Of a stretch of 30,697 nt of DNA, positions 1 through 17,582 are shown piece by piece. The stretch is taken from positions 1 to 30,697 of the IMG/VR virus record IMGVR_UViG_3300030451_000993; one strand, 5' to 3'. Under the pieces are notes generated by a model. It was not told the DNA's origin. It did not search any database and worked only from the letters and a program-made list of their open reading frames with translations. Numbering within the stretch: the first letter of the stretch is position 1; each line of letters opens with the position of its first letter. The translations under genes were made by a program, and so were the position numbers. The stretch is from a virus.

Positions 1-396
1 CTATTTCTATACCACCGTTTTCGGAAGCAGAACCAGTAGCGTTAGAGTTTAAGGTAATAAGATTATCAGCAAGATTTATTGTTTCAGTATTTACTGTTGT
101 TGTAGTTCCACTAACAGTTAAGTTACCACTAACTATTAAGTCGTTGAAAGTTACATTGCTAGTTGTTCCTACAGCCTGTCCAATAGCAACTTCTCCAGAA
201 GATATTGTAACACCTGTTCCTGCGGTAATGTGTGCTCTTACTTCAGAAGCACTAGGACCTGTATATGTAAATACTCCTGTTGATGAGTTATATGCTAATG
301 AGCCATCGCCACCACTATCTGTAACAGAAACTGCACCTCTAGCCCTTGCGTCTGTGTAGTAAAGGTTAGAGCTACCTTCTGTTAAGTTATCAGTAG
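1..396 (-). repeat. Fibre module A, copy 2 (cut by window edge)
   Basis: A module of about 132 visible codons: NLTEGSSNLYYTDARARGAV, TDSGGDGSLAYNSSTGVFTY, GPSASEVRAHITAGTGVTIS, SGTTTTVNTETINLADNLIT, NATGSASENGGIEI. It repeats the segment at 1768..2177 with mostly silent DNA changes and lacks an 8-codon stretch (DADGNVVI) present there. The continuation past the edge should be an ERGDDSNKTFLW-like segment. Confidence 0.8.
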
Positions 397-3300
397 TGCT
401 TGCAGATAAACTAGAACCTGCAACAGAAATAACTGAGTCTCCACCCATTCCAGAGTGATGTTGACAGTAGTAATAAAGAGTATCAGCAGTTGCTGCGTTA
501 ACAACAATTTGAGTATAAGCTCCAGAGCTACCCGGAGTTCCATTAGTTGTTACACCAGTTGTATAGTTGCTACCAGAACCATGTGTACCATTCTTAGTTG
601 TTGATAGTAATAATGGGTGTCCAGACACAGAGCTATCTGAGGTATCAAATCTATAAGTTATACCCGGAATCAATTGAATGCTTGCGTTTAGTTCACCATC
701 TAAATAATATTTATTACCAGAACCCGGATTAGCTACTGTGACTGCAAACTCTACTATTGCAGTATTATTTTCAAAGTTTATTGTTTTGTTTGTAAGAGTA
801 TCTGTAGAGGTTTCAGTAACAACAGTACTGTCTATGGATACAGCACCGGAAGAAACATTTATTCCTGTGCTACCTGTAATTGCAGCTTGTGCTCTTGCGT
901 CTGTATAGTATAAGTTATTAGAACCCTCTGATACATCATCAGTATCTTGTGTCTTGACACGAAGCATTCCGTCATTACCCATACCAGAGTGTGCTGTACA
1001 GTAGTAGTACAAGTTAGGTGTCATACCATCTACAACTATTTGTGTATAAGCACCGCTTGAACCTTGTGAGCCATTAGTAGTTACGCCTGTTGTATAAGCA
1101 CTACCGCTATTATGAGTTCCGTCTTTAGTTTCTGATAAAGCAAATGGATGACCAGATGTTGATGAATCTGATGTATCAAATCTATAAGTAACGCCCGGTA
1201 TAAGCTGTACAGTACTTGCTAGTTGTCCGTCTAAGTAAAACTTGTTACCACCAGAAGCATTAGATACTGTTACAGCGTATTCAATTATTGCTGTGTTGTT
1301 TTCAAAGTTAATTGTTTTATTAGTTAACGTATCAGTAGAAGTTTCTGTTACTACTGTTCCGTCAATAGATATAGCACCTGTGCTATTGTCATAAGTTATA
1401 CCTGTGCTTCCAGATAAAGCAACTCTTGCTCTTGCAGCAGTATGGTAAAGATTTGTAGAGCCTTCAGTCATGTTATCTGTATCAAACTCAGAGAAGTCTA
1501 TGCTGAGTGTTCCAGAAGATTCTGTTATACCTGTTCCACCTGTTAAGTAAGTAGAAACTCTAGCGTCTGTATAGTAAAGGTTGGTGGAGCCTTCACTTAA
1601 GCTATCAGTGTCGTGATTACTAATGCTTGACACAGTTCCTGTGACATTTCCAGTCAAGGCTCCTTCAAAAGTCCCAGCTACGAATGTCTCAGAACCAACA
1701 GTCCATTTATCATCTGTTTCGTTCCAAAGGAAAGTCTTATTACTATCATCTCCTCTTTCTATCTCAAGTCCACCATTTTGTGAAGCTGAACCTGTAGCGT
1801 TAGAGTTAAGAGTTATAACATTGTCAGCAAGATTAATAGTTTCTGTGTTAACAGTTGTAGTTGTACCAGATACAGTTAAGTTTCCGTCAATTACTACATT
1901 TCCGTCTGCGTCTATATTATTGAAAGTAACATTGTCAGTAGTTCCAACTGACTGACCTATTGCGATTTCACCAGATGATATTGTTACACCTGTACCGCCT
2001 GTTATATGAGCTCTGACTTCTGAAGCAGATGGTCCTGTGTATGTGAATGCACCTGTAGAGCTATCGTAACTAAAAGAACCATCTCCTCCAGAATCAGTAG
2101 CTGATACCGCACCTCTTGCTCTTGCATTGGTAAAGTATAAGTTAGTTGAGCCTTCTGTTAAAGAATCTGTGTCGTGATTTGTTATTGAGGATACAGTACC
2201 AGTAACATTTCCTGTAACGTTACCTGTAACATTACCAACTAAGTCAGCAGTAACTTGATTAAAGGTTACATCGCTTGTTGTTCCTACTTCTTGAGGTATT
2301 GTTAAAGTTAAAGTTCCAGCAGTATCATCATAAGTAGATGTTATACCTGTTCCGCCAACGATAAGGCCGTTTACTATATCCTCTAATGCGTCTTCTACTT
2401 CTGGTAAATCTACAGTTAAAGTTAGTTGGTTGTTGGTGTCGTCATAGCTTATATCTATTCCGCTTGATGTAGAATCTACTAATAATGCAGCGACCCTGTC
2501 ATCAACTCTTTCAGCAGTAAAATATAAATTAGTTGAACCTTCAGATAAGCTGTCTGTATCAAAGTCACCTAAGTCAACTGTAATAGTTGGTGTTGCTGTT
2601 TCACCTGTATTATTTGCTAAGTCAATACCTGTACCAGCAACAAGACTTGCAACGTATGCACCTTCAGTATCTGTTCCTAAGTTAAGTGGTTCATTTATAA
2701 ATGCTGAACCATTGTATCTAAGAATGTCTCCTGTAGCAGTAGAAGTTAAAGTAACGTCTGATAAATCATTTAAACCTGCTGATAAAGCAACTGTAGGTGT
2801 TTGTCCTTCTCCAGAAGTAACGCTGACACTTATACCAGTACCAGCTACTAAGTTTTGTACATAATCACCAATAGTATCTGTAGATAAGTTAACAGGGTCA
2901 TTTATCCAACCAGAGCCGTCATATCTTAAAAAGTCTCCATTAGCCAAACTAGAGAAAGTAACATCACCCATTTCTGCTAATGTGTCAGAAGCTTGTACGT
3001 CAGATAATAAAGCTACTGTACCGGATGAGTCTGGAAAAGTTATTGTTCTGTCAGCAGTAGGGTCAGTTACAGCAAGTGTAGTTTCAAAAGCGTCATCTGT
3101 TGCTCCCTCTAATGCAATAGAAGGACCACTAACAGTTAAGTTAGATGTAAGTATTGTATTGAATTGTACTGAGTCTGATGTACCTAATCCTAAAGAATCT
3201 CTTGCTGTTGAGCCAGATTCGTTTACAAATGTAGTTCCATTACCAACAATAAAGTTTCCGTCTGTTGGTGTTAATCCAGATAGAGCTTGTAGTTCAGCGT

Positions 3301-3478
3301 CATATCCTTGAACATCTACACCTATCTCTAGTCCAAGAGCAGTTCTTGCAGCGGAAGCGGTTACAGCACCTGTACCACCATCACTTATTGCAATGAAGTC
3401 TGCTGCTTGAAACTCGGAGAACTCAACAACGTTACCGCTATTGTCAAAAACGTACCTTATTGGACTTTTTGCGGCCAT
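1..3478 (-). CDS. Giant fibre protein with tandem cupredoxin-like domains (3' end beyond window)
   Basis: The frame opens with ATG at 3478 (MAAKSPIRYVFDNSGNVVEF), sharing one base with the upstream stop, and stays open to the left edge: at least 1159 residues, C-terminus missing. It is Ser/Thr/Gly/Asp-rich with few Lys, as in phage fibres. Near the N-terminus stands FIAISDGGTGAVTASAARTA, a common shaft motif. Six copies of a (D)TD.L.EGSTNLY(Y/F)T.AR unit recur near 2540, 2160, 1595, 1470, 925 and 380. A block with SGTTTTVNTETINLADN occurs twice. Two domains at about 720-840 and 898-1018 each have His...Cys-x2-His-x2-Met (His777, Cys827, His830, Met833; His954, Cys1005, His1008, Met1011), the ligand set of type-1 copper proteins. 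Likely a long side or tail fibre; copper binding is inferred. Confidence 0.85.
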   Translation of the reverse strand, partial: MAAKSPIRYVFDNSGNVVEFSEFQAADFIAISDGGTGAVTASAARTALGLEIGVDVQGYDAELQALSGLTPTDGNFIVGNGTTFVNESGSTARDSLGLGTSDSVQFNTILTSNLTVSGPSIALEGATDDAFETTLAVTDPTADRTITFPDSSGTVALLSDVQASDTLAEMGDVTFSSLANGDFLRYDGSGWINDPVNLSTDTIGDYVQNLVAGTGISVSVTSGEGQTPTVALSAGLNDLSDVTLTSTATGDILRYNGSAFINEPLNLGTDTEGAYVASLVAGTGIDLANNTGETATPTITVDLGDFDTDSLSEGSTNLYFTAERVDDRVAALLVDSTSSGIDISYDDTNNQLTLTVDLPEVEDALEDIVNGLIVGGTGITSTYDDTAGTLTLTIPQEVGTTSDVTFNQVTADLVGNVTGNVTGNVTGTVSSITNHDTDSLTEGSTNLYFTNARARGAVSATDSGGDGSFSYDSSTGAFTYTGPSASEVRAHITGGTGVTISSGEIAIGQSVGTTDNVTFNNIDADGNVVIDGNLTVSGTTTTVNTETINLADNVITLNSNATGSASQNGGLEIERGDDSNKTFLWNETDDKWTVGSETFVAGTFEGALTGNVTGTVSSISNHDTDSLSEGSTNLYYTDARVSTYLTGGTGITESSGTLSIDFSEFDTDNMTEGSTNLYHTAARARVALSGSTGITYDNSTGAISIDGTVVTETSTDTLTNKTINFENNTAIIEYAVTVSNASGGNKFYLDGQLASTVQLIPGVTYRFDTSDSSTSGHPFALSETKDGTHNSGSAYTTGVTTNGSQGSSGAYTQIVVDGMTPNLYYYCTAHSGMGNDGMLRVKTQDTDDVSEGSNNLYYTDARAQAAITGSTGINVSSGAVSIDSTVVTETSTDTLTNKTINFENNTAIVEFAVTVANPGSGNKYYLDGELNASIQLIPGITYRFDTSDSSVSGHPLLLSTTKNGTHGSGSNYTTGVTTNGTPGSSGAYTQIVVNAATADTLYYYCQHHSGMGGDSVISVAGSSLSASTTDNLTEGSSNLYYTDARARGAVSVTDSGGDGSLAYNSSTGVFTYTGPSASEVRAHITAGTGVTISSGEVAIGQAVGTTSNVTFNDLIVSGNLTVSGTTTTVNTETINLADNLITLNSNATGSASENGGIEI
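425..800 (-). repeat. Cupredoxin-like domain, copy 2 of tandem pair
   Basis: Second copy: TLTNKTINFENNTAIVEFAV, GITYRFDTSDSSVSGHPLLL (His954) and TLYYYCQHHSGMGGDSVISV (Cys1005, His1008, Met1011). All four presumed copper ligands and the flanking Tyr-rich strand are kept, while the loop between (TKNGTHGSGSNYTTGVTTNG) is nearly the same as in copy 1. Retention of every ligand in both copies argues for a metal-binding function. Confidence 0.75.
955..1330 (-). repeat. Cupredoxin-like domain, copy 1 of tandem pair
   Basis: This is the first of two in-frame copies, about 177-178 codons (531-534 bases) apart. It runs from TLTNKTINFENNTAIIEYAV through GVTYRFDTSDSSTSGHPFAL (His777) to NLYYYCTAHSGMGNDGML (Cys827, His830, Met833). 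The strand-Cys-x2-His-x2-Met end and the early His 50 residues before match the amicyanin loop type. The DNA differs from copy 2 at many silent sites, so the duplication is not recent. Confidence 0.75.
1768..2177 (-). repeat. Fibre module A, copy 1
   Basis: Upstream copy of the same module: SLTEGSTNLYFTNARARGAV, TDSGGDGSFSYDSSTGAFTY, GPSASEVRAHITGGTGVTIS, SGTTTTVNTETINLADNVIT, NATGSASQNGGLEI, then ERGDDSNKTFLWNETDDKWT. The offset to the other copy is about 1.76 kb, and the cupredoxin-like pair lies between, so the fibre is built by stacking modules. Confidence 0.8.
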
Positions 3479-11885: not shown

Positions 11886-11965
11886 TCTTCTTCTTCAGTC
11901 CATTCAACCCACTCATTATCGTGAGTAGCTTTGTGTATATGAAAATTTGCGTGTGAATATAACAT
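11882..11965 (-). CDS. 27-aa micro-ORF, His-rich and acidic end
   Basis: A 27-codon frame that begins on the tape-measure stop (TAATG, sharing base 11965) and ends in TGA overlapping the next ATG by 4 bases. It reads MLYSHANFHIHKATHDNEW then VEWTEEEE, with four His residues including an HIH. I recognise no family. Support for real translation is only the tight coupling at both ends and the fact that the two micro-ORFs together fill the whole 174-base gap exactly. It may be a peptide, or serve to keep ribosomes moving to the next genes. Confidence 0.5.
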   Translation of the reverse strand: MLYSHANFHIHKATHDNEWVEWTEEEE

Positions 11966-14900
11966 TATCTATTTCTAAGTCCTGTTCCTGCATTACCTTC
12001 TTTTTCTAGTTTTGTTAATTCTCTTCTAATGTTTATAGCAACTTTTCTAGCTGTGATTGGGTCTGCTGGTAATCCTGTGATATTCAAATTCATATTCTCT
12101 ACTGTAACACCTCCGACACCAGCTCCGGTTTTATTAGAGAATACTGATGTACCACCCGGTGTTGACATAATAACTTCTGGTCCTCTTTCACCTACAAGTG
12201 ATGACCTACCTATAGGAACGTTACCACCTGTGTAATTATTCATATCTACTCTTCTACCGGTATAGTATCCACCTTGACCAATTATTCCTTGTACACCACT
12301 TTGTCCTGTGTTAGGTACATAAGGATTAGCAAACATTTGTATTCCGTTAAATATATTTTGATTTCTAAGTTCTTCAGATATTTCATTTATAACTTTCTTA
12401 GTGTGGTCTACAGTAGCTAAAGTTCCGTTCATAAAGTTTTGTAGTGCTTGGTCTTGGAATGCAACATAGTTTGCAAACTCTGTTTCCATTGCTACTAATA
12501 CTTCTTGTACATAACCTGTTGGTATTCCTAGTTGTTTAGCTAGGGTCATAAACATATTGTTAAGGTCTGGATACTTTTGCCTTAACTTGTCTATCGCTAT
12601 ACCATTTTGTGCAATCTTAATATTATTTTCTGCAATCATTGAATTGTACTTATCAGTAGCGTCAGCAATCTTTTGATATCTTTCTGGCTGTACTTTTAAT
12701 TGGTCATTGTAAGATTCAATAGCAGAAATAATTTCTGGAGACAAACCTTTTGCTCTGGATTCAGCAGCTGCTAGTTCTGCTTCAGCTGCTTTGATTTGCA
12801 AGTCTAAGATTTTCTTTTCAACCTCAGACATTGGGTTACGCATTTCTTCAAGTTCTTCTCTAGCTGCGTCTAAGTCTAATTGTTCAGCAACTCCCTGTTC
12901 TACTGCTAACTCTAAGAACTTAACTTCTTTTTCTTTGTCTCGTAAAGATTTCTTTTGACGTGCAGTCATCTTCATACTTAACTTGTCTCTCATCTTATCT
13001 AGATTGAGACCCATTTGTAATAGTTCTAATTCTTCACTAGCAGTTACTACACCTTCTTTACCAAATTTATCTATTGCTTCTAATACAGCTTCTCTTGCTA
13101 AATCAACCTCTAACTGTTCTTTTTTACGAAGACTTATTTGTAAGTCACCAAATACAATATCTTGTTGTAATTCTGCTATTTCTTTTTCTGTATCTCTAAT
13201 AGCTCGTTTTCTTTTTTTGATGTCTTCGTTCATTCTGAACATTGACAACATAGCAGCAAGTTCTTCTTCTCTTGCAGAAGTTGCAGCTTTGACTAGTTGT
13301 AGGTTGTCCATGTTTATTTGAGCATTTACAGCTTGTACACTATTCAAACCAGTTTGTTCAAATATTTGGTCTCTAATTTCTTGAGTAATCTCTTCACTAG
13401 TTCCTTGTATTCCTTGTAGTTCTGCTGTGTTATCAATGAACATTTGATTTAGTTCTGAAAACTCTGGTGCTAATGAAGCGTCACCTATTCCTTGTAAAAA
13501 TGCAATAGCTGTTCCAAATGCTTCACCTGTATCTTGGATACTTGCTACTTGTGCAGCTAAACCTACTTGGCCTTGGCTAACTAGTATTCCGATAGCATTA
13601 GTAATAAATGATATTCTATCTTCTACTTCTTGTGTTCCTGCAACGATATCTTCTGGTGATATAAATTTAATATCACTTAAGTCACTAAAGGTTGTACCTA
13701 AAGTTCTCATCTTATCTATTTGGTCACCAATAAATTGTGTAACTTCTACTATGGCTTCTGCAAAAGCTTTGTTGCTATCAGTTGCAGTATCTGTGCTTCC
13801 GTATAAAGTTTGAATAACTCTATCAGCTGTTGTAGAGCTTGCAATAAATTGTTCTAATGTAATAGTTGAATGACCTGTTTCACTAGCCATAGCATTGTAT
13901 CTATCAACTAATGTTTGAGCACTATCAGCTAAGAATTCTTGTTCTTTATCAATATTTGTCATTCTGTTACCTAGCTCTGACAAAGCAGGTGTTTGTTGTT
14001 TTAAGAAAAATAATTGTCTCTTTTGTGCTTCTGTAAATTTATCTGAACCGGCTTCTGCCTCTGAAAATGCACCATTAATATTTGCTACAGTAGTATTTAT
14101 AATACCGCCTGCTTCTTGAAAAACATTTGCGTCATCTAATCCTTTTACTGAAATAAGCTGTAACAATCCTGTTAAGTCACCTTTTTCTAATAAATTTTGT
14201 ACTACTTCTAGTTCTACACCTATAGCTTCAGATAATTGTTCTGCTAAGTCTCCTTCTGCTCCTATAGTTTGTTCAATAAAACTTAAATTACTCATTCCTG
14301 TACTACCAGTCAAAGCAACTTCTGTACCAGATATTTGTATTGTTTCTACTTCGATTGGGTCTCTTGTTATATCTCCTAAAGCTTCATACTGATTACCTAA
14401 GACTCTAAAAGCAGTAGATACTTTTTCTGCCTCTTCAACTGATATATCTTTCATGAATTTAGGTATGTTCATAAATGCTCTGATACCAGCATTGTTTATA
14501 TCAGATAGTTCGCTTTCGATAATATTTAATTCTTTTTGATAAACTTGTAATACTTCTGGAGCAAAACCTTCTTCTTGCAATCTATTAAATTCTTGTTGTT
14601 TTTGTTGAAGTTTATTCTGTAAAGGTACGAATGCAGAAGCAGTTTCAGTAAATAGTTTAGCTGAAGCTTCAGAGTTCTTATTTGCTCTAGCATTTGCAAT
14701 ACCAAAACCTGCTATGAGTGCTGTAGCAATACCGATAGGACCCATCATCATTTTAAGAGCTTGAGTCATCTTCATATAACTCATAGTCTGCTGACCAATC
14801 ATTTTTCTAGCTAATTTTGCAGCATGTGTTTTCTTACCACTTAAAGCAAGTTGTTTTATTTCTGCTCTTGTCATTTCTGCAAGTACTTGTGCAGATTTAG

Positions 14901-16233
14901 CTGTAGAAGCATTTACTTTTGCTTGTATAGATATAAACTTGAAGAAGTTAAATATAGGCATAGCCATAGCAAGACCTAATGCTACGAAACCACCTGTAAG
15001 TACTTTCATAGAGTTAGACATCTTACTAAATCCTACTTCAGCACTCTTTTCATCATCTGCTGCTGCAACAGCAACACCAGTCAATGCTTGCGTTAATGCT
15101 TTTGCAAGTGGTAAGAATGTATTACCTATTTCTATACGAAGTTCTGTAAAGGCATTCTTCATTAACTTTGTTTGAGATTTCAAAGTTTCGAATCTCTTAG
15201 CAGCCTCTTCGTTAAGAGCATTGTTAATTTCAAAAGCAGCATTACCTCTAGCTAATGTTTCAGTAACTAGGTCTCCTGCCTCAGATAGAGCTAACAAAGC
15301 ACGGATAGTTCTCTGCTGTTTTAGGCCTAATGCGTCAAGAACCTCTACAACATTACCGCCTTCTTCACTTAATCTTGATAAACCTTGTAAGAATACGTTA
15401 AGAGCTTGAGCTGGGTTATTTTCAGCTAACTCTTTGAACTGCTCTGGTAATATTCCAGATACTCTTGCAAATACATTTAACTGTTCTGTACCTCCTTGTA
15501 CGGCTACAGTTAATTGCTGGAATACACGTGCGACAGCAGTACCACCTGCTTGTGATTGAACACCAACAGCTTGTAACGCAGTAGCAATTGCTAAAGTATC
15601 CGCGGCTGTTGCTCCAGCTACTTTAGCACCTGCTGCTAATCGTAATGATGTAGAAAGTATTTCATCTTCAAGAGCTGCGAAGTTGTTACCTAAGTCAACC
15701 AATGAAGAAGCAAGTTTAGATATATCTTCGTCTGCAAGTTGGAAAATAGTTTTCATCCTTGCAAGACCAAGTGCAGCAGTTTCAGTAGATAACCTAGTTG
15801 CTACTCCTAATTTAGATATAGTTTCAATAAATGTAGGAAGTCCACCTGCGTCAATGCCTAACTGACCTCCAAGCTCGCCAATTGCATTTAATTGACTAGT
15901 TGCAATAGGTATTTCAGTTGCAAGTGTTCTGACAGATACAGCTAATGATTTAAAATCAGCTTCACTAGCGTCAACAGTTTTTCTAATACCTGCAAAGGAA
16001 TCTTCAAATTTAGAAGCTGCACCAACTGTGAAAGCCATAGTTGTTGCTAATCCAGCTAATGTTGTTAATGCTGTAGTACCAACTGCACCAGCAAGGCCAC
16101 CTAATTTACCATAGGCACCCATAACAGTAGAGGCTAGTTTGTTTGCTTCTTTCGCCGCCGTATTGGTAGCGTCGTCCATATCGACTTTGAACGCAACGAG
16201 GAAAGGGGCTACTCCACCGGACTTATTAGCCAC
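11965..16233 (-). CDS. Tape measure protein (TP901 type)
   Basis: This 1422-residue protein sets tail length and is threaded inside the tube. It starts GTG at 16233 with GGAGG five bases upstream. The TP901 core lies at about 73-385: FEDSFAGIRKTVDASEADFK, LATEIPIATSQLNAIGELGG, ATALQAVGVQSQAGGTAVAR, ENNPAQALNVFLQGLSRL, TLKSQTKLMKNAFTELRIEI. Hydrophobic segments are at about 47-72, 408-437 and 494-511 (the last MMGPIGIATALIAGFGIANA). A coiled-coil-rich region runs about 980-1160. The end carries LVGERGPEVIMSTPGG, the common tape-measure C-terminal motif. No peptidase or lysozyme motif was seen. With about 0.15 nm per residue, a tail near 210 nm is inferred. Its stop shares one base with the next micro-ORF. 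Confidence 0.95.
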   Translation of the reverse strand: MANKSGGVAPFLVAFKVDMDDATNTAAKEANKLASTVMGAYGKLGGLAGAVGTTALTTLAGLATTMAFTVGAASKFEDSFAGIRKTVDASEADFKSLAVSVRTLATEIPIATSQLNAIGELGGQLGIDAGGLPTFIETISKLGVATRLSTETAALGLARMKTIFQLADEDISKLASSLVDLGNNFAALEDEILSTSLRLAAGAKVAGATAADTLAIATALQAVGVQSQAGGTAVARVFQQLTVAVQGGTEQLNVFARVSGILPEQFKELAENNPAQALNVFLQGLSRLSEEGGNVVEVLDALGLKQQRTIRALLALSEAGDLVTETLARGNAAFEINNALNEEAAKRFETLKSQTKLMKNAFTELRIEIGNTFLPLAKALTQALTGVAVAAADDEKSAEVGFSKMSNSMKVLTGGFVALGLAMAMPIFNFFKFISIQAKVNASTAKSAQVLAEMTRAEIKQLALSGKKTHAAKLARKMIGQQTMSYMKMTQALKMMMGPIGIATALIAGFGIANARANKNSEASAKLFTETASAFVPLQNKLQQKQQEFNRLQEEGFAPEVLQVYQKELNIIESELSDINNAGIRAFMNIPKFMKDISVEEAEKVSTAFRVLGNQYEALGDITRDPIEVETIQISGTEVALTGSTGMSNLSFIEQTIGAEGDLAEQLSEAIGVELEVVQNLLEKGDLTGLLQLISVKGLDDANVFQEAGGIINTTVANINGAFSEAEAGSDKFTEAQKRQLFFLKQQTPALSELGNRMTNIDKEQEFLADSAQTLVDRYNAMASETGHSTITLEQFIASSTTADRVIQTLYGSTDTATDSNKAFAEAIVEVTQFIGDQIDKMRTLGTTFSDLSDIKFISPEDIVAGTQEVEDRISFITNAIGILVSQGQVGLAAQVASIQDTGEAFGTAIAFLQGIGDASLAPEFSELNQMFIDNTAELQGIQGTSEEITQEIRDQIFEQTGLNSVQAVNAQINMDNLQLVKAATSAREEELAAMLSMFRMNEDIKKRKRAIRDTEKEIAELQQDIVFGDLQISLRKKEQLEVDLAREAVLEAIDKFGKEGVVTASEELELLQMGLNLDKMRDKLSMKMTARQKKSLRDKEKEVKFLELAVEQGVAEQLDLDAAREELEEMRNPMSEVEKKILDLQIKAAEAELAAAESRAKGLSPEIISAIESYNDQLKVQPERYQKIADATDKYNSMIAENNIKIAQNGIAIDKLRQKYPDLNNMFMTLAKQLGIPTGYVQEVLVAMETEFANYVAFQDQALQNFMNGTLATVDHTKKVINEISEELRNQNIFNGIQMFANPYVPNTGQSGVQGIIGQGGYYTGRRVDMNNYTGGNVPIGRSSLVGERGPEVIMSTPGGTSVFSNKTGAGVGGVTVENMNLNITGLPADPITARKVAINIRRELTKLEKEGNAGTGLRNR

Positions 16234-16928: not shown

Positions 16929-17582
16929 TTAGTTAATATCTAACTCGTCTGAATCGTTAGTGTTATCTACAACTCTGAACAAGTAGTATGCACCGCTAGA
17001 GCTACCAACATTTAAAGTTGAGTCTGGTACAAGAACCTTAAATTCTGTAGCCAAACTAACTTTTGCTGGAGCTTTTTGGTGAGCCATTGCGAAAGAACCA
17101 ACATTCACTGCTCTAGGAATGTGGAACTGTCTGTCTGCACCAGCAGGTCCATCTGTGTGCAACACAAGTGCGTACTCTGTGAAAGTATCAGACAATGGAG
17201 GTAGGTATACATCATACCCAGCGGCGAAGTTAGTAGTATCGTCTTCTGTGATTGTACCACCACCCATTGCTATTTGTAACTTATTCTGTGCAGCTTGTGA
17301 AAGCTCTCCAGTAAGTCTTACTTCTTGTGCTGATTTAAGAGTTTTAATAGGGTCTACTTCTTCTGCGACCATGACATCTTCAAAAGTTTTATCAACTTCT
17401 AATGTCCAGCCATCTTCTGAGTATCCTACTTCATCCCATGCAACAGACATTCCGGTTGGGTTTACCCAGTTACCGGAGCTATCGCCCGGAAATGCTAAGG
17501 AACTTGTAGTCCTATCTTTGTAATAGAGAACACCTGTACCAATTAATACTTCGGATATTGTACCGCTTGTATTGTATGACAT
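16929..17582 (-). CDS. Major tail (tube) protein
   Basis: A 217-residue protein that I assign as the tail-tube subunit. Evidence: length and beta-rich composition fit; it starts MSYNTSGTISEVLIGTGVL and continues GMSVAWDEVGYSEDGWTLEVDKTFEDVMVAEEVDPIKTL, the early strand pattern of siphovirus tube proteins in which the ligand loop and the helix-linked strand follow. The middle reads EVRLTGELSQAAQNKLQIAMGGG, the usual helix plus Gly turn. It ends with DNTNDSDELDIN. Placement directly before the G/GT chaperone and tape measure is diagnostic. The ribosome site TTAGGAGA is among the strongest in the window, as expected for a high-copy product. Confidence 0.88.
   Translation of the reverse strand: MSYNTSGTISEVLIGTGVLYYKDRTTSSLAFPGDSSGNWVNPTGMSVAWDEVGYSEDGWTLEVDKTFEDVMVAEEVDPIKTLKSAQEVRLTGELSQAAQNKLQIAMGGGTITEDDTTNFAAGYDVYLPPLSDTFTEYALVLHTDGPAGADRQFHIPRAVNVGSFAMAHQKAPAKVSLATEFKVLVPDSTLNVGSSSGAYYLFRVVDNTNDSDELDIN

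Follow-up and report, generated by a model that had tools for sequence, protein, structure and literature searches.

Predicted cupredoxin-like modules with a type-1 copper ligand set in the tail fibres of marine phages

The tail fibre of the marine bacterial virus analysed here carries two copies of a small module that is predicted to be built like the blue copper proteins of photosynthesis and respiration and that has their full set of copper-holding residues. The module recurs in virion proteins of many ocean viruses, and to our knowledge it has not been described there. The window (the whole stretch of DNA analysed, the 30.7-kb IMG/VR record IMGVR_UViG_3300030451_000993) encodes the first 1,159 residues of the fibre, and the record ends inside the gene. 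A relative with an identical first domain, designated L080, has the whole protein of 2,076 aa. The fibre matched PHROG 697 (E 1.4e-58), 30742 (E 6.8e-34), 693 and 677, which are structural and tail-fibre families. The other genes of the window include those for terminase, portal, capsid protease, major head protein, head-tail adaptor, tape measure and minor tail protein, so the fibre gene lies at the tail end of a tailed-phage structural module. No named phage matched the window at the nucleotide level.

The initial annotation had noted two tandem copies of a His, Cys, His and Met set in the fibre, and this observation was confirmed at the exact residues. The copies are 177 (His) and 178 (Cys) codons apart, and the distance from His to Cys is 50 and 51 residues, respectively. 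Both strands end in LYYYC-x2-H-x2-M, and the two ligand cysteines are the only cysteines in the 1,159 residues. The pattern is not due to chance. Each copy scored about 145-150 bits against an iterated profile of the family, although this profile was grown partly on ligand-bearing sequences. In 41 diverse homologues the only invariant residues were F, D and S of an RFDxSD strand motif and the four ligands.

Table of features. Window coordinates refer to the 30.7-kb record; the last three lines refer to other phage sequences.
Sequence	Feature	Coordinates	Strand	Residues	Support
Window	Tail-fibre gene, 3' end cut by the record	3478..2	-	1-1,159	PHROG 697, 30742, 693, 677
Window	Cupredoxin-like domain 1 (predicted fold)	968..1282	-	733-837	Profile match; AF2 model of aa 722-846; PDB fold matches
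Window	Cupredoxin-like domain 2	434..751	-	910-1015	Profile match; 69% identical to domain 1
Window	First ligand, domain 1	1148..1150	-	His777	Conservation
Window	Ligand loop, domain 1	980..1000	-	Cys827-x2-His830-x2-Met833	Conservation
Window	First ligand, domain 2	617..619	-	His954	Conservation
Window	Ligand loop, domain 2	446..466	-	Cys1005-x2-His1008-x2-Met1011	Conservation
Window	Upstream minor tail protein, 1,533 aa	5930..10531	-		PHROG 11445, 496
Window	Tape measure protein (long-tailed phage; non-contractile tail inferred)	11965..16233	-		PHROG 13339, 28 and others
Window	Protein upstream of the tape measure gene, 217 aa (possible major tail protein)	16929-17582	-		PHROG 2175, 'protein with Ig domain'
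PSS2 (stretch L202)	gp80, stand-alone version of the domain, 112 aa	2492-2830			Annotated baseplate wedge subunit
P-SSM2	Second, more canonical cupredoxin subfamily	225472-225729			
S-H9-1	Related domain	77761-78009			Phage protein annotated as peptidase

To predict the fold of the module, we used AlphaFold2 on an alignment of 41 natural relatives. The model of domain 1 is a confident beta sandwich with 9 strands (pLDDT 86.5, pTM 0.82). Foldseek against the PDB returned rusticyanin, pseudoazurin, AcoP, copper nitrite reductase and multicopper oxidases almost throughout the top of the list, with top hits at E 3.7e-4 to 1e-3 and a probability of 1.00. TM-scores were modest (0.4-0.58), as expected for distant relatives with a long inserted loop. 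That the four residues meet in space is inferred only from fold and alignment equivalence.

Sequence comparison supported the same reading. A profile-profile comparison was made with 28 bacterial PF00127-type blue copper proteins from gammaproteobacterial genomes and one Bacteroidetes genome. It scored 31.4 (E 1.1e-4) over the strand-loop core, with His, Cys and His in register and Met within the gapped loop, whereas 60 column-shuffled controls reached at most 16.3 and reversed profiles 12-14. A profile search of PDB sequences aligned the first His, Cys and second His with those of plastocyanins, Met again falling in the gapped loop, at a non-significant E of about 0.35. Prochlorococcus phage P-HM2 carries in one protein (PHM2_106) a copy close to this family and a second, more canonical copy (GTYSYICGIHSSMKGTITV) that hit plastocyanin at E 0.0025 and listed amicyanin. 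The second copy belongs to a more canonical cupredoxin subfamily (CGIHSSMKG) found in Prochlorococcus and Synechococcus phage proteins (28 phage records). However, direct Pfam and NCBIfam scans of the domain gave nothing over cut-off. Pfam Copper-bind scored 13.6 bits for the fibre and 20.1 bits for the related copy of P-HM2 against a cut-off of 21.2 bits, so we do not file the domain as a PF00127 member. A phmmer search of the PDB with the single domain placed pentatricopeptide repeats in the top rows, which summed many weak pieces and were rejected, and pseudoazurin appeared at E 1.6.

We next asked whether the ligands behave as a site. In 122 unique full domains, 105 were C-x2-H-x2-M, 3 were C-x2-H-x3-M, 2 were C-x4-H-x2-M and 12 lacked the loop ligands, with nine of the C-x2-H-x2-M rows and one C-x4-H-x2-M row read by eye. 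The amicyanin-like spacing proposed in the initial annotation is therefore right and dominant, and loop indels keep the ligands. Adding named phages gave 135 domains, of which 117 had Cys-His-Met. The distant His was present in 117 of these 117 and in only 3 of the other 18, which lack Cys and the second His. Because C, H and M define the label, only the result for the first His is free of circularity. On a tree the ligand state changed about four times (three forced by well-supported branches) against a shuffled mean of 17, and each ligand column needed 5-6 changes against a median of 26. Independent losses (3-4) are too few for a significance test. Of 139 cysteines within the domain 135 are the ligand, and cysteine is rare outside it (0.82 versus 0.11 per 100 aa). 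This is the pattern of one metal site and not of freely varying residues. Loss was not strictly all-or-none, and single-ligand relics remain. P-RSM4, S-SZBM1 and one domain of the stretch L149 keep a His at the first position, and PSS2 and the flavobacterial second domains keep a Met.

The module is not peculiar to this phage but is widespread in marine phages, including phages of cyanobacteria, SAR11 and Methylophilales. In the IMG/VR contigs returned (337 related stretches) it was found at very different places: mid-fibre, as residues 8-113 of 400-600-aa proteins, and in 1,600-aa baseplate-wedge proteins, singly, doubly or triply. In 50,697 phage records, 267 matched, nearly all named for aquatic hosts (Synechococcus, Prochlorococcus, cyanophage, Pelagibacter, Methylophilales), but these cannot all be counted as carriers of a copper site. 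Of 13 records opened, six have intact ligands (S-B68, S-TIM54, Melnitz-3, Syn1, HTVC028P and P-HM2) and six have the domain without the set in the stretch opened (P-SSM7, S-RIM2, P-RSM4, ACG-2014d, S-SZBM1 and PSS2). No domain was detected in the stretch opened of Roseobacter phage CRP-207, whose fibre shares flanking repeats with ours. The site is thus common but not universal, and the module is inserted or lost as a unit. Related domains also occur in phage proteins annotated as subtilisin-like or S8/S53 peptidase (S-H9-1; BFVD A0A0E3F583 and V5URI3).

The cyanophage tail-fibre family phrog_693 / T4-GC 345 keeps the domain but has mostly replaced the first His by Arg and the Cys by Asp or Asn and has lost the His-Met loop. 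PSS2 gp80, encoded next to the tape measure gene, has degenerate ligands. An AlphaFold2 model of the ligand-less domain of L066, a phrog_693 member, from a single sequence reached a pLDDT of only 33.6, so retention of the fold after ligand loss rests on sequence only. A few marine bacterial contigs carry the module too, in a large flavobacterial DUF7507/DUF11 repeat protein and in a small Litorivicinus protein with a dockerin-like part, which suggests a general extracellular module. Flavobacterial or other Bacteroidota proteins have one intact domain near the N-terminus and one with lost ligands (Phe/Tyr, Ser, Gln, Met).

The results indicate that each domain is very probably a cupredoxin-fold module, with an intact type-1 copper ligand set (His, Cys, His, axial Met, amicyanin-like short loop), carried as a mobile bead in a virion tail fibre. 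This supports the initial annotation, which proposed that the fibre carries copper or uses a cupredoxin fold for adhesion. Copper binding is likely, but it is inferred in the absence of any copper measurement. Most likely the fibre is made metal-free in the host cytoplasm, where copper would be scarce, and takes up one copper ion per domain at or after lysis or at the host surface. The filled site would stiffen the ligand loops and form the exposed docking face through which cupredoxins usually meet partners. Given copper, a role in fibre stability and/or host-surface adhesion is somewhat more likely than not. It is possible, although we hold this only tentatively, that true type-1 copper centres are built into a whole family of virions. 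Marine phages would then carry copper in their tail fibres and baseplates, load it from seawater or the dying host and use it for attachment or redox sensing at the host surface, which would make ocean viruses carriers of organically bound copper.

The main alternative, although unlikely, is a metal-free bead in which the fold is real but the four residues are kept for packing or hydrogen bonding, and the module is only a fibre spacer or adhesion domain. The ligand-less versions in cyanophage tail fibres and PSS2 gp80 show that the module has a use independent of metal. On the other hand, the four residues are conserved together and lost almost together while loop length changes around them. 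A lone Cys-His-His-Met set has no obvious packing role and matches the type-1 site position by position apart from loop length. A site for another metal such as zinc, or a copper(I) store or scavenging site, is also improbable. Ligand type alone does not fix the metal, and phage tails are known to hold iron through HxH motifs (PMC11705849), but Cys-His-His-Met in a cupredoxin fold is the type-1 copper arrangement, and the window part of the fibre has no HxH motif.

Electron exchange with host surface or periplasmic proteins during infection would be consistent with the intact ligand set, its amicyanin-like spacing and the electron carriers among the relatives by fold. We consider it unlikely, as no partner or enzyme was recognised among the neighbouring genes scanned and the domains sit at variable places in fibres, unlike a dedicated electron path. 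An immunoglobulin-like or other beta-sandwich fibre domain with a chance ligand pattern is very improbable. Ig-like domains are common in phage fibres, and one BFVD match and P-HM2 are annotated with Ig domains. However, the leading PDB fold matches were cupredoxins, and the profile comparison aligned the ligand positions with blue copper proteins far above controls.

No cupredoxin or blue-copper domain in a phage virion was found in the 5.4 million open-access papers searched, which did not cover subscription papers or preprints, nor were InterPro assignments included. If the sites hold copper, metal in marine virions would not be limited to the proposed iron HxH motifs. The analysis also gives a predicted fold to a large, so far unexplained module of cyanophage, pelagiphage and Methylophilales phage tail proteins, of which the ligand-less versions are natural controls.

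Amicyanin, pseudoazurin and plastocyanin (single-domain blue copper proteins, PF00127) share with the module the predicted cupredoxin fold and the His-Cys-His-Met ligand set in the same order, and the C-x2-H-x2-M loop is as in amicyanin (CTPHPFM in 1id2). They differ in that the phage domains are not secreted electron carriers but beads inside a virion fibre, with a longer His-to-Cys stretch containing a Gly/Ser/Thr-rich insertion. Soluble bacterial cupredoxins are stand-alone secreted proteins, whereas the domains here lie inside a fibre, as judged from their position without signal-peptide prediction. Rusticyanin and copper nitrite reductase domains are the best fold matches, but at 12-15% identity and with other loop lengths, and they are enzymes or soluble carriers. 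PHROG 30742, 693, 677 and 27200 (phage tail fibre and baseplate connector families) contain this domain but are annotated only as tail, structural or unknown, with no fold or metal site named, and L066 and named cyanophage members of phrog_693 have lost the ligands. Iron-bearing phage fibres (T4 gp37 HxH motifs; Alteromonas phage R22Y, PMC11705849; the Trojan Horse hypothesis) likewise have a proposed metal ion in a tail fibre, possibly relevant to host attachment, but with a different fold, different ligands and a different metal.
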